Assembly (NCBI GenBank): GCA_026874595.1
Contig: CM049314.1
Location: forward strand, 67,950,300 to 68,014,299
Direction of reading: 5' to 3'
Source: Sipunculus nudus
Taxonomy: Eukaryota > Annelida > Sipuncula > Golfingiida > Sipunculidae
Length of the DNA: 64,000 nucleotides
Below the pieces are notes generated by a model. That model did not search any database. It was not told where the DNA came from and worked only from the letters and a program-made list of their open reading frames with translations. Shown piece by piece: positions 3,426-23,965 of this stretch. A program made the translations under genes and the position numbers. Within the stretch, counting starts at the first letter, position 1, and every line of letters begins with the position of its first letter.

Positions 3426-4385
3426 TCGTGTGTCGGCATGGATTTGCTGGACAACTTTCGTTTTCACCCAAAATGAGTTAATAACGTGAGACAATACACA
3501 TATTATTGCAAATGAATATGAACCATAAGTGTCACTTATAGAGGTGTCTGTAATACAGAGATGCCAATAAGGAGAGGTTAATGATTCCTATATTAATTAT
3601 GAAACGGAGTGCTTGATCCCATAAGTTTAACTTCATGGTGTCTACAGTAGTAGGACAAGTTACACGTACATGTACCACATATAAGATTATATACTTATCC
3701 GCAAATCAAACCGATCTGAGGTGTAGGCTTTACCACCACTTCAGCCTGACATATTAACAAAAAGACATGTATTATATTTTGTATTCTTCTTTCACAGATT
3801 AATCAAATGTCTATGAGCTATAGTCTATAATATTTTTTTTTATTTAATTAAAATAAAAAATTAAATTTTATGTACCGCATAAAATGGGTTGTGGACTGTT
3901 CCGCTACCCACATATTATATAAATGGTTGTATATACATTAAATATTTTTAACGATCCACTACACCGTGCGTTATATCATAAATCTAATTTTTAGATCAAT
4001 AATGAATATTAGAAAACCGCACAATACTCAAACACTAAAAATTAGGCTATTTGGTAGCTGTCCTCTTGTTTTCAATTTGGCAAAGGCAATATTTTTTTAT
4101 TAATACTATGACAGGCTCATCCTTTTTAACATCATACGCTACCAACAGAATTAATCACCTATCTAAAAATGAAAGTTCTGTATATGACCTGCAGACAACG
4201 ACTTGATATATTTCGCTTCCTTAAAATATTTCAGAAACCCAGACACAGAAAAATGATATAATCGAATAGCATTTAAATATATAGTATATATAAATAAAAA
4301 AAGAAATATATATATATATATATACGTTCGTTTCAACGGTGTTCAAACTGTTTGCAAGGAGGTGGAGAACATACATTATCTAACA

Positions 4386-4424: not shown

Positions 4425-4486
4425 TGCTTATACATATATCAGTTGGTCTGTTGTGTAGTCTGTGAAACAGATCCGTAAGATTTATT

Positions 4487-4713
4487 ATTTCGTACGTACG
4501 AGATAGTATGTCGTACGTACGAGATAATATGTCGTACGTACGAGATATTATGTCGTACGTACGAGATAGTATGTCGTACGTACGAGATAATATGTCGTAC
4601 GTACGAGATAACAAGTCGTACGTACGAGATAGTATGTCGTACGTACGAGATACTATGTCGTACGTACGAGATAGTATGTCGTACGTACGAGATACTATGT
4701 CGTACGTACGAGA
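4487..4713. repeat. 21-bp tandem array, eleven copies (right arm)
   Basis: Same unit as at 921-1067 in inverted orientation, with eleven copies instead of seven. Frames are open on both strands (SRTYDI on the - strand, SYVRD on the + strand) because the unit is 21 bp and contains no stop. The differing copy number shows that the two arms evolve independently at this point. Confidence 0.9.
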
Positions 4714-4760
4714 TAAATAATTTATTTTTCTTTTACTAGGTGGCAGCAATACGCTTCCGT

Positions 4761-6315: not shown

Positions 6316-6677
6316 ATATAGACTTTGGTTCTATTTTCATTTTGATATGAAATATATATAATCCTGGTTTCGAATTAATCTATACTCGAAACAATGACTT
6401 TTTAAAATCTTTTATTTACGGATATCATGAATAGATATAATATTATACAAAATATCAATCATCAGCTAACTACTTTCGAAGCTACATGCAATTGCATCGT
6501 ACATAAAATGCTAATTAGGCTACAGTATGAATCACTTATGTACATAAGACGTCTTTTGCAGAGTATTTTGTTAACAAAATACTTTCCTTTCGCAAATATT
6601 CCGAACCTTTAAGCTCTCGCAAACAGAAAGCCGAAGCCATGGTATAAAACATAAATTTCATTTTATGTAAAGCGAGC

Positions 6678-6679
<2 letters not shown>
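6316..6679. other. Unassigned stretch
   Basis: No gene seen. Positions 6575-6640 resemble 14880-14945 (shared phrases such as CTTTCGC-AATAT, CTCTTGCAAACAG and AAGC-GA), so a short dispersed repeat is present in both places. Confidence 0.4.

Positions 6680-6680
<1 letters not shown>

Positions 6681-6709
<29 letters not shown>
6681..6709. repeat. (TA)n microsatellite
   Basis: Abuts the 5' truncation point of the Penelope-like fragment at 6711. Confidence 0.95.
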
Positions 6710-6710
<1 letters not shown>

Positions 6711-7196
6711 CTGGGCAGCATCATTAGACACCACAACCAAAAAGTTCTACAACAAACATCGAACCCCCAACCCAAGCGAGCTTGCAACTGCAGGAATAAA
6801 GGAGAATGTCCACTGAACGGCGACTGCCTAACAACAAGTGTTGTTTACAAAGCTGATATAACTACAAATAACGGGACCGTCTCATACATAGGAAACACAG
6901 GAAATACTTTTAAAAGCCGCTATGCGAGCCACAAGAAGTCGTTTAAATACGAGAAGTATGAAACAGAAACAGAACTATCAAAGTATATTTGGAAACTGAA
7001 ACGCCAAGGCACCTCACACAGTATCACATGGTCTATTATAGCTAAGCCAACTACAACAACAATGAATAACAGGTGTAACCTATGCGAACAAGAAAAGCTA
7101 CAAATTATGACTTACAAAAGAACGCCACTCCTTAATAAACGAAGTGAATTACTTAACACTTGCAGGCATCATACAGCAAAAAACAGCCAACCGTAA
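6711..7196 (+). pseudogene. Penelope-like element, C-terminal GIY-YIG endonuclease domain (5' truncated)
   Basis: One uninterrupted frame of 161 codons up to TAA at 7194. It starts inside a protein, without its own start codon, at the edge of a (TA)n tract. It contains the features of the Penelope endonuclease in order: the cysteine-rich linker CNCRNKGECPL and GDC, the GIY-like VVYKAD followed by the YIG core (tac ata gga), then the SFK/SRYASHKKSF segment, the ELSKYIW helix, CNLCEQEK, and the family's terminal LLNKRSEL...CRH. In the full element this domain nicks target DNA and follows the reverse transcriptase. The RT part is missing, so this is a typical 5'-truncated copy. The intact frame suggests a fairly recent insertion or a low mutation rate here. 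The 3' untranslated part carries a hammerhead ribozyme. Confidence 0.9.
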
Positions 7197-7244
7197 ATAA
7201 TCTTGCACATGCACCCACACATGAACACAAACCAACCCCATTCA

Positions 7245-7293
7245 GTCACCTGATGAGTGCCACGCAGTGCGCACGAAACCTGGGGGTAGTGAC
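7245..7293 (+). ncRNA. Hammerhead ribozyme, type I, minimal helix III
   Basis: All conserved parts are present in order. Helix I strands GTCAC (7245-7249) and GTGAC (7289-7293) pair perfectly. The core CTGATGA is at 7250-7256. Helix II is GTGC/GCAC (7257-7260 with 7271-7274) closing a 10-nt loop. The core GAAA is at 7275-7278. A three-pair helix III, ACC/GGT (7278-7280 with 7285-7287), closes a TGGG loop. The cleavage triplet GTA ends at 7288, so cleavage is predicted after A7288. It sits 49 bp after the stop of the Penelope-like frame on the same strand. Short helix III type I hammerheads are known from Penelope-like elements and from metazoan retrozymes, where such forms often act as dimers. 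Confidence 0.85.
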
Positions 7294-7320
7294 ATTTATG
7301 CATTGATGCATTTTTATTAA

Positions 7321-7322
<2 letters not shown>

Positions 7323-7369
<47 letters not shown>
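7323..7369. repeat. (TA)n microsatellite
   Basis: Closes the 3' end of the Penelope-like fragment. Together with 6681-6709 it brackets the insertion in TA repeats. Confidence 0.95.
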
Positions 7370-7370
<1 letters not shown>

Positions 7371-7655
7371 TGGTATAGCCGTGTTAGTCTGTAGTTGAAG
7401 CGTAGATAACAGGGGCGAATCCAGAATTTAGGAAAAAGGGGGGTTCCAACCTAGGAGAGCTAAAGAAAACCCTAAAGAAAAGGTCCTCCGGTCTGGAAAA
7501 TGGGGGCCCAAGCCACAAAATTTTGTCTGAAGCCTTTTAGATACGTTGTTTCCGGACCCCCTGGACCCCCCCCCCCCCCCCATCCACTGCTGGATAAAGA
7601 TAAAGAGTGTCGCCTTTTAGATAGACTAACTTGTTTATTAACATATATTAATAAA
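7370..7655 (+). other. Unassigned stretch, possible element terminus
   Basis: Begins AAGTGGTATAGCCGTGTTAG, a phrase I associate with ends of retroelement copies, possibly Penelope-like terminal repeats, though I cannot confirm this. It also holds a short poly-C run at 7567-7581. No gene seen. Confidence 0.3.
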
Positions 7656-20824: not shown

Positions 20825-23800
20825 TGCGCCTTCATTTTTGGTTGACCTCTGACCTTTCCTTGCTGCCCAGTGTCCATTTGTGCGTCTGTTTCCACACATA
20901 AACCCACATATCTCGGGAACCGTTTGACCGATCAGGCAAAAAATTTTGCACAAATGTAGCCCTTTGATAGCTTTATAGCATACACTAAAATGGTGGCGCC
21001 ACCTGCAACCATTTTTGCACAGCCACCTGTTCATCTGCCTTGGGATAATATTACTCATATCTCAGCAGTTGTTTGACTTATCCACCTTAACTTTTGCAGG
21101 TTTATACATCCTGGACAGCTTTCTCGATTTTATGACAGGTGGTGCCACCTACATTCACATTTACTCTGCAGACATTCAAGCTCATATCTCGGGAACCGTT
21201 CGACCGATTGGGCAAAAATTTTGCATGTGTATAGATCTTACATAGCTCTTCATCATAGGCAAAACTGGTGGTGCCACCAGCAACCACTAATGCACAGCGT
21301 CCATCTGTTCATCTGCCTTTGGATAAAATTACTCATATCTCAGCAGTGGTTTGACTTATCTACCTGAAATTTTGCAGTTTTATACATCCTGTACAGGTTT
21401 CTCGATTTTATGACAGGTGTCGCCACCTACATTCACATTTACTCTGCAGACATCCAAGCTCATATCTAGCGAACCGTTTGACCAATGAGGCCAAAATTTT
21501 GCATGTGTATAGATCTCACATAGCTCTTCATCATAGGCAAAACTGGTGGTGCCACCTGCAACCATTTATACACAGCATCCATCTATTCATTTGCCTTTGG
21601 ATAATATCACTCATATCTCAGCAGTGGTTTGACTTATCCACCTGAAATTTTGCAGGTTTATACATTATGGGCAGGTTTCTCGATTTTATGACAGGTGGTG
21701 CCACCTTCATTCACATTTACTCGGCAGACATCCAAGCTCATATCTCGGGAACCGTTCGACCGATTAGGCCAAAATTTTGCATGTGTATAGATCTCACATA
21801 GCTCTTCATCACAGGCAAAACTGGTGGTGCCACCTGCAACCATTCATGTACAGCATCTATCTGTTAATCTGCCTTAGGTTAAAATAACTCATATCTCAGC
21901 AGTGGTTTGACTTATCCACCAGAACTTTTGCAGGTATTTTACATCCTTGACAGCTTTCTCGATTTTATGACAGATGTCGCCACCTACATACATTTACTCT
22001 GCTGACATCCAAGCTCATATCTTGGGAACCGTTTTACCGATTAGGCCAAAATTTTGCATGTGTATAGATCTCACAAAGCTCTTCATTATAGGCAAAACTG
22101 GTGGCGCCACCTGCAACCACTTATGCACAGCATCCATCTGTTGATCTGCCTTCGGATAAAATCACTCATATCTCGGCAGTGGTTTGACTTATCTACCTGA
22201 AATTTTGCAGTTTTATACATCCTGTACAGGTTTCTCGATTTTATGACAGGTGTCGCCACCTACATTCACATTTACTCTGCAGACATCCAAGCTCATATCT
22301 AGCGAACCGTTTGACCAATGAGGCCAAAATTTTGCATGTGTATAGATCTCACATAGCTCTTCATCATAGGCAAAACTGGTGGTGCCACCTGCAACCATTT
22401 ATACACAGCATCCATCTATTCATTTGCCTTTGGATAATATCACTCATATCTCAGCAGTGGTTTGACTTATCCACCTGAAATTTTGCAGGTTTATACATTA
22501 TGGGCAGGTTTCTCGATTTTATGACAGGTGGTGCCACCTTCATTCACATTTACTCGGCAGACATCCAAGCTCATATCTCGGGAACCGTTCGACCGATTAG
22601 GCCAAAATTTTGCATGTGTATAGATCTCACATAGCTCTTCATCACAGGCAAAACTGGTGGTGCCACCTGCAACCATTCATGTACAGCATCTATCTGTTAA
22701 TCTGCCTTAGGTTAAAATAACTCATATCTCAGCAGTGGTTTGACTTATCCACCAGAACTTTTGCAGGTATTTTACATCCTTGACAGCTTTCTCGATTTTA
22801 TGACAGATGTCGCCACCTACATACATTTACTCTGCTGACATCCAAGCTCATATCTTGGGAACCGTTTTACCGATTAGGCCAAAATTTTGCATGTGTATAG
22901 ATCTCACAAAGCTCTTCATTATAGGCAAAACTGGTGGCGCCACCTGCAACCACTTATGCACAGCATCCATCTGTTGATCTGCCTTCGGATAAAATCACTC
23001 ATATCTCGGCAGTGGTTTGACTTATCTACCTGAAATTTTGCAGTTTTATACATCCTGTACAGGTTTCTCGATTTTATGACAGGTGTCGCCACCTACATTC
23101 ACATTTACTCTGCAGACATCCAAGCTCATATCTAGCGAACCGTTTGACCAATGAGGCCAAAATTTTGCATGTGTATAGATCTCACATAGCTCTTCATCAT
23201 AGGCAAAACTGGTGGTGCCACCTGCAACCATTTATACACAGCATCCATCTATTCATTTGCCTTTGGATAATATCACTCATATCTCAGCAGTGGTTTGACT
23301 TATCCACCTGAAATTTTGCAGGTTTATACATTATGGGCAGGTTTCTCGATTTTATGACAGGTGGTGCCACCTTCATTCACATTTACTCGGCAGACATCCA
23401 AGCTCATATCTCGGGAACCGTTCGACCGATTAGGCCAAAATTTTGCATGTGTATAGATCTCACATAGCTCTTCATCACAGGCAAAACTGGTGGTGCCACC
23501 TGCAACCATTCATGTACAGCATCTATCTGTTAATCTGCCTTAGGTTAAAATAACTCATATCTCAGCAGTGGTTTGACTTATCCACCAGAACTTTTGCAGG
23601 TATTTTACATCCTTGACAGCTTTCTCGATTTTATGACAGATGTCGCCACCTACATACATTTACTCTGCTGACATCCAAGCTCATATCTTGGGAACCGTTT
23701 TACCGATTAGGCCAAAATTTTGCATGTGTATAGATCTCACAAAGCTCTTCATTATAGGCAAAACTGGTGGCGCCACCTGCAACCACTTATGCACAGCATC

Positions 23801-23965
23801 CATCTGTTGATCTGCCTTCGGATAAAATCACTCATATCTCGGCAGTGGTTTGACTTATCTACCTGAAATTTTGCAAGTTTATACATCCTGGACAATTTTC
23901 TCGATTTTATGACAGGTGGCACCACCTACATTCACGTTTAAGCTGCAGACATCCATGCTAATATG
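20825..23965. repeat. Satellite array, 139-bp half-units in 278-bp dimers
   Basis: Each 278-bp unit has two related halves of about 139 bp. Both start CTCATATCTC, share TTTGAC, AAATTTTGCA and TATA landmarks, and end in the palindrome GGTGGTGCCACC or GGTGGCGCCACC. The halves have diverged into A (containing GGGAACCGTT) and B (containing AGCAGTGGTTTGAC). The edge units at 20825-21010 and 23880-23965 are the most diverged, as expected for an array homogenised in its centre. The 61-codon frames on the - strand recur once per unit and are by-products. Confidence 0.95.
21350..23870. repeat. 833-bp higher-order repeat, three copies
   Basis: Three 278-bp units form a block that repeats with period 833, for example start points 21380, 22213 and 23046, and again 21658, 22491 and 23324. 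Every stretch I compared was identical between the three blocks, including private variants such as GACAGATGTCGCCACC at 21971, 22804 and 23637. This implies very recent amplification or, alternatively, an assembly artefact. Confidence 0.9.

Follow-up and report, generated by a model that had tools for sequence, protein, structure and literature searches.

The stretch of DNA analysed here (hereafter the window) comprises 64,000 nucleotides (nt) of the Sipunculus nudus genome (contig CM049314.1, positions 67,950,300 to 68,014,299), and a complete type I hammerhead ribozyme motif was found at its positions 7245-7293 on the plus strand, in the 3' untranslated region (UTR) of a 5'-truncated fragment of a Penelope-like element (PLE). 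The motif reads GTCAC-CTGATGA-GTGC(CACGCAGTGC)GCAC-GAA-ACC(TGGG)GGT-A-GTGAC, with a helix I of 5 base pairs (bp) (7245-7249/7289-7293), a helix II of 4 bp (7257-7260/7271-7274), which in the predicted fold continues for 3 bp beyond a bulge, and a helix III of 3 bp including the core-adjacent A-T pair (7278-7280/7285-7287). The blocks CUGANGA, GAAA and the NUH triplet, here GTA, occur in this order, and cleavage is predicted between 7288 and 7289, after A7288, which occupies the H17 position of the hammerhead fold. The complete fold, with helices of 5, 4 and 3 bp and a cut at this place, had been described in an earlier note on this DNA, and both the letters and the strict descriptor given below confirmed, at the level of sequence, that the motif is real.

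The strict descriptor, which required at least 5, 4 and 3 pairs in helices I, II and III, respectively, matched once in the window (both strands considered) and never in 150 first-order Markov windows of equal length. A relaxed descriptor was applied to 325,855 bases, namely the window and 46 fetched loci, and gave 45 matches belonging to the window family plus one in L043, likewise a family variant; no match outside the window family was obtained in these bases. When the 49-mer was folded alone, the hammerhead was its optimal structure (-12.2 kcal/mol, frequency 0.255), but it was no more stable than shuffled sequences (z 0.63).

The fragment that carries the motif (6709-7322, plus strand) comprises the end of an open reading frame (ORF) and the 3' UTR, and aligns at 97.9% to positions 1874-2501 of the unit found at locus L009. 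This unit provides the reference numbering used below ("ref"), in which the hammerhead spans 47-95 and the cut falls between 90 and 91. The order of the full unit is hammerhead, two insertion-end sites called A and B, a start codon (ATG, ref 247), broken frames and the next hammerhead 2,363 nt on; thus, the hammerhead sits in a pseudo-long terminal repeat (pLTR), between the ORF stop and the reverse-transcription starts. In the window, the last 161 codons and the stop of the ORF (6711-7196, plus strand) are followed by an initiator-like TCAGTC (7242-7247, plus strand), where transcription would start at A7244 judging by the 5' ends of other copies, and by site A, ACTTATA (7320-7326, plus strand), the insertion 3' end and probable reverse-transcription start according to 25 of 47 arm ends. 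The copy is flanked by (TA)n on both sides: an (AT)n tract adjoins its truncated 5' end (6680-6708), as (TA)n also does in L012, L013 and L017, and a target tract lies at its 3' end (7323-7368).

An open GIY-YIG frame had been proposed upstream of the motif. The frame 6648-7196 is indeed open, and its stop lies 48 nt upstream of the motif; however, it begins in flank and (AT)n, and the domain has no profile match. Since the stretch common to other copies starts only at 6708/6709, the window copy is, to judge from its letters, a truncated, non-autonomous fragment. The pieces of the ORF gave no usable match in Pfam, NCBIfam or PDB sequences (no Pfam match at E 10, and none to GIY-YIG), while a single-sequence AlphaFold model of its product was of low confidence (pLDDT 45) and a fold search with this model did not recognise the protein. 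By eye, a GIY-YIG-like pattern (VVY...SYIG...R...H...E) could be read in the window copy, and a YRDD motif, the putative sign of a telomerase-like reverse transcriptase, in the frames of L009 and L018, the latter with neither a Pfam nor a PDB sequence match. The putative assignment to the PLEs rests on these by-eye motifs (YRDD; VVY...YIG) and on the arrangement of the copies, in which pLTRs, partial tandems, head-to-head inverted arms, a tail on one arm and an AT-rich target were seen.

Further copies were searched in the genome of the window itself (1.43 Gb, 153 contigs). With window positions 7150-7400 as DNA query, 40 of 367 candidate places were scored, and 35 loci of 7-9.5 kb each were fetched; moreover, the 32 nt following the cut site have 79 exact copies in the genome. 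These close, genome-wide copies support the earlier suggestion of a minimal type I hammerhead in a PLE, with a very short helix III. The 49 nt of the motif were identical in 29 of the 47 hammerhead rows used (two of 49 were dropped as partial or misplaced), and the core and all 12 pairs were kept in 36. Private substitutions were less frequent in the hammerhead (20/2009, 1.0%) than in the flanks (64/3361, 1.9%; p 0.009), based on 41 rows, with eight dropped and three group-diagnostic sites, all of them in the flanks, set aside. In L063 a C-G pair of helix I is replaced by T-A with the pair kept, while L067 carries the T-G intermediate.

As to tandem copies, for which the earlier note had advised looking, copies one unit apart are rare in the window family, a partial unit being joined head to tail to a full unit in two of the 35 loci (L009 and L018). 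Two copies on C9, 2,388 nt apart, were rejected as a tandem: since the repeat includes the host flank, they resemble a segmental duplication. The proposal that this family gives rise to circular RNAs found no support here. No short retrozyme-like array was seen, no search aimed at such arrays having been made.

In order to characterise more distant relatives, a protein search with the ORF was used, in which 150 of 2,899 candidate places were scored, and the downstream 300-770 nt were read for 15 of the scored relatives. A hammerhead with an intact CTGANGA core was present in eight of the 15, and one with a single core change in three; among the rest, two were degenerate or deleted, one shows no hammerhead, and the stretch from L073 was too short to tell. 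Together with L009, L043, L063, L067 and the window copy, these relatives form six groups that differ in their helix letters. An alignment of 13 rows covering the six groups (a fourteenth, F5_L020, was excluded for its departing core) contained 153 paired cells out of 169, versus a shuffled mean of 122.7, and changes on both sides in 11 of 13 pairs, versus a shuffled mean of 4.9; neither value was reached in any of 2000 shuffles. Pairs II.1 and III.1 never changed on both sides, pair I.6 was formed in only two of the 13 rows, and II.1 was T-T in three, so that I.6 and II.1 are to be treated with caution. In this hand-made alignment the three helices, open at helix I, are backed by pair-keeping changes, and the compensatory changes whose absence would have spoken against the fold were therefore found between groups as well as within the family (L063, with L067 as intermediate). 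The alignment indicates that the hammerhead fold is kept across six sequence groups of the genome. The letters TCA directly precede helix I in groups 1, 2 and 4.

A related family, at 43% identity, was also observed, with many uninterrupted frames of ~713 amino acids in tandem and inverted arrays of units of about 2.92-2.94 kb. It occurs at C12:49443116-49506938 (15 scored matches), C9:65452943-65467619 (six) and C1:55954919-55966137 (four), and one of its spacers, L072, contains its own hammerhead. A decayed hammerhead-like stretch akin to that of L072 is present in L020 from 3843-4020 onward, beside a copy and repeated with host flank; the same locus holds a host frame (744-1742) with a Pfam Glyco_transf_11 match (E 4e-36).

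The 3' ends of the insertions were fixed at two places. Among the arm ends listed between ref 120 and 199, 47 in number, 25 were at 127-130 (site A) and 22 at 189-194 (site B), that is 38-40 and 104 nt beyond the cut, and, L043 excepted, an AT-rich tract, in most cases (TA)n, follows them. In 18 of 19 head-to-head insertions with both ends reached, one arm stopped at A and the other at B (13 of 14 counted by pattern and five by eye, with the duplicate L021 dropped); the nineteenth, L036, had two B ends. The tail that two accounts describe for other PLEs (PMC11167929; PMC3846280) has its counterpart in the stretch between A and B. Solo insertions consisting of only two head-to-head pLTR arms, palindromic and placed in (TA)n, were observed at L044-L050, L056, L057 and L062; in L047 both arms carry the same private G-to-A change, as if made from one template or by fold-back copying.

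At the other end, 15 arms from 10 loci start at ref 45-54, the 5' edge of the hammerhead (two arms each at L044, L045, L046, L047 and L057; one each at L048, L055, L062, L063 and L067), versus six arms starting at ref 1-44 (L014, L020, L028, two at L050, and L060). Owing to the palindromic sequence of the arms at this place, several of these 5' ends can be located only to within a few letters. The cleanest junctions were those of L063 and L067, in which (TA)n is followed by GGGC and by G, respectively, and then by the A that precedes the hammerhead. A cap tends to leave an extra G at the 5' junction, and TCAGTC presumably fits the initiator consensus. Taken together, the clustered 5' ends, the extra G and the initiator-like TCAGTC suggest a transcription start at the A immediately before the hammerhead.

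Sites A and B both lie beyond the cut. The 79 copies of the 32 nt after the cut were collected in two pattern scans (position -3 is G in 76 and not in the other three), and GTA precedes the cut in 72 of the 79. The remaining seven comprise four point mutants of longer copies (L037, L038, L049 and L055), two loci with an arm that starts at the cut, in each case inside a short microhomology (L034 and L056), and C11:67946697, which was not read. Cut RNA as the usual template was not borne out by these two censuses, with only two of 79 copies starting at the cut. Given that GTA is kept before the cut and that the 3' ends lie beyond it, we infer that templates were normally uncut or re-ligated, a re-ligated circle being identical in appearance at the cut. 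In a lizard PLE studied in vitro, insertion is not impaired by hammerhead mutations, and its cut did not show up as an RNA end (PMC11167929); by analogy, the few cut-start copies fit this result.

Based on these observations, it seems somewhat probable (about 0.6) that the motif is a minimal type I hammerhead of a PLE family, placed in the pLTR, with the transcript starting at the hammerhead, reverse transcription primed at A and B, and a template that is usually uncut or re-ligated. RNA polymerase would begin at the A immediately preceding the hammerhead, and the transcript would thus have one hammerhead at its 5' end and another after the ORF. The enzyme of the element would then open (TA)n, and reverse transcription would proceed from site A on one strand and from site B on the other, the RNA being usually uncut, or re-ligated, at the time of copying. 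Should cleavage occur, the RNA would lose its first 45 nt and the ORF would be separated from the reverse-transcription starts; cleavage would thereby act as a brake on the RNA, or as a late processing of it, rather than as a maker of template ends.

The hammerhead of the window copy differs from the family majority by a single private change, G instead of C at 7283, which turns loop III from TGCG into TGGG. In the majority, the helix III segment (ACCUGCGGGU) is complementary to itself over its full length, and the best two-strand fold is a double hammerhead (-39.9 kcal/mol), while with the window letters this fold is lost and another structure is predicted (-32.5 kcal/mol). In these models C7283G spoils the possible hammerhead dimer by breaking its fully paired helix III, which weakens, for the window copy, the earlier proposal that it could still cleave its RNA. 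Across the groups, two self-complementary blocks of 4 letters or more are present in the helix III segment of groups 1-5, and in groups 1 and 3 the self-complementarity is complete. It might be imagined that the hammerhead is mainly a pairing device, through which two hammerheads, from the ends of one RNA or from two RNAs, would be joined via the self-complementary helix III and would hold two reverse-transcription start regions in one particle. If true, such pairing would allow the enzyme to prime the two strands of a broken (TA)n tract simultaneously, and would account for head-to-head insertions in which one arm ends at A and the other at B. This idea is limited by the two-strand folds, since among the five groups examined only groups 1 and 2 had the double hammerhead as their optimum, and we consider the idea very unlikely.

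Other explanations address the same observations. Hammerheads could cut tandem or read-through RNA to unit lengths, which would be closed into circles and serve as template, as in retrozymes: a re-ligated circle would also hold both reverse-transcription sites and an intact hammerhead, so that copies reading through the cut would be compatible with circles, L009 and L018 carry a partial and a full unit, and the relative at 43% identity forms arrays of its ~2.9 kb units, with its own hammerhead. However, the extra-G 5' ends at the hammerhead edge point to linear, probably capped templates, few copies start at the cut, and tandem copies are rare in the window family; circular templates are regarded here as unlikely. 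The clustering of 5' ends at the hammerhead edge, and TCA directly before helix I in three groups, would also agree with a sequence kept as a promoter or protein-binding site overlapping a once-active hammerhead, the cleavage of which no longer matters, as would a published PLE hammerhead that requires protein in order to cleave and is not needed for insertion in vitro (PMC11167929). Nevertheless, the helices change in step across groups, which would be needless for a promoter alone, and we find this explanation doubtful. Chance resemblance, which could appeal to sub-threshold Rfam scores, is refuted in practice by the empty result in 150 simulated windows, by the lack of matches outside the family in 326 kb and by the covariation.

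Several points weigh against the favoured reading, that of a PLE hammerhead at which the transcript starts and which is usually copied uncut or re-ligated. It was drawn from genomic DNA, and its statements about RNA are predictions. In a scan of the window with Rfam 15 no family attained its gathering score, and the top hammerhead match over 251 nt was RF02275, with 15.3 bits versus a cut-off of 52 (E 0.37); the Rfam check proposed earlier came out below threshold and, because of these scores, membership of any Rfam hammerhead family is not claimed. Higher-scoring Rfam rows (pestivirus UTR and others) were rejected, being low-complexity alignments to the (TA)n tract. In contexts of 96 and 131 nt, a different fold beats the hammerhead. 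The rows of the covariation alignment were both chosen and aligned by hand, and the substitution test ignores shared ancestry. The placement of the RNA start is based on few insertions, and some solo palindromes show different junctions, as judged by reading (L048, L049, L050, L053 and L056) or by spacing only (C1:100620233, C8:58740203 and C12:72769597). Moreover, one scan required ref 52-81, so that sampling favours copies keeping this stretch and ends further in are under-counted; those seen past 54 were at 68, 69, 78, 83, 91, 107, 127, 130 and 156.

Other repeats were also observed in the window. A unit starting with GTGGTATAGCCGTGTTAGTCTGTAG and ending near AGACTAACTTGTTTATTAACA, with inverted ends, occupies 7369-7640 and adjoins the (TA)n of the element. 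A 21-bp satellite with a palindromic GTCGTACGTACGA core is present at 919-1064 and 4486-4715, and a tandem array with a 278-bp unit (11 copies, 88% matches) extends over 20907-23964.

Hammerheads in the pLTRs of PLEs have reportedly been known since 2014, and their action as dimers is said to have been reported in 2017. The window family shares with these known hammerheads the core, the very short helix III, the place in the pLTR, the many dispersed copies in an animal-type genome and a helix III that can pair between two copies; no difference in kind was found, the UGCG loop III and the overlap with the putative transcription start being details of this family. Minimal type I hammerheads in PLEs were described by Cervera and de la Pena (2014) and by Lunse, Weinberg and Breaker (2017), as reported in the accessible parts of PMC7761336, PMC6155905 and PMC7229834. 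PAc, a Poseidon PLE of Anolis carolinensis, has in common with the window family, in the portions available of its description (PMC11167929), a C-terminal endonuclease region (putative in the window family), a hammerhead located close to where the unit begins, a tail bounded by two reverse-transcription starts (probable in the window family), AT-rich targets and templates that would be uncut at the hammerhead. In PAc, the ORF starts at stem II and the start sites lie inside the ORF and are not homologous to the target, whereas in the window family the hammerhead and both sites are situated in the UTR, ahead of the ATG (ref 247), and the ends of the sites match (TA)n.

Metazoan retrozymes, as characterised in part of PMC7229834, likewise combine a type I hammerhead with a weak helix III and a retroelement. 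Unlike them, the window motif belongs to a coding element, with a 2,363-nt unit that includes an ORF, and the solo copies are palindromes rather than tandem arrays; the family does not fall into the retrozyme class, whose members are understood as tandem repeats of a few hundred bp that are non-coding and have one hammerhead per unit. The Penelope families of Adineta vaga, in the sections available of PMC3846280, show similar inverted pLTRs with a tail on one of them, an initiator-like sequence and palindromes at the pLTR 5' end; the term "hammerhead" is absent from those sections. A 2020 review called the role of PLE hammerheads a mystery (PMC7761336, in the excerpt available). The window hammerhead belongs to these already known PLE hammerheads, and what this genome adds is a record of insertion ends, along with at least five PLE groups with different helices, many clean-ended insertions and a related family whose open frames are long. 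Insertion ends are a record of the RNA ends that were copied, which were seldom the base after the cut and often the 5' edge of the hammerhead, and this record gives a simple prediction for 5' end mapping, here or in another animal.
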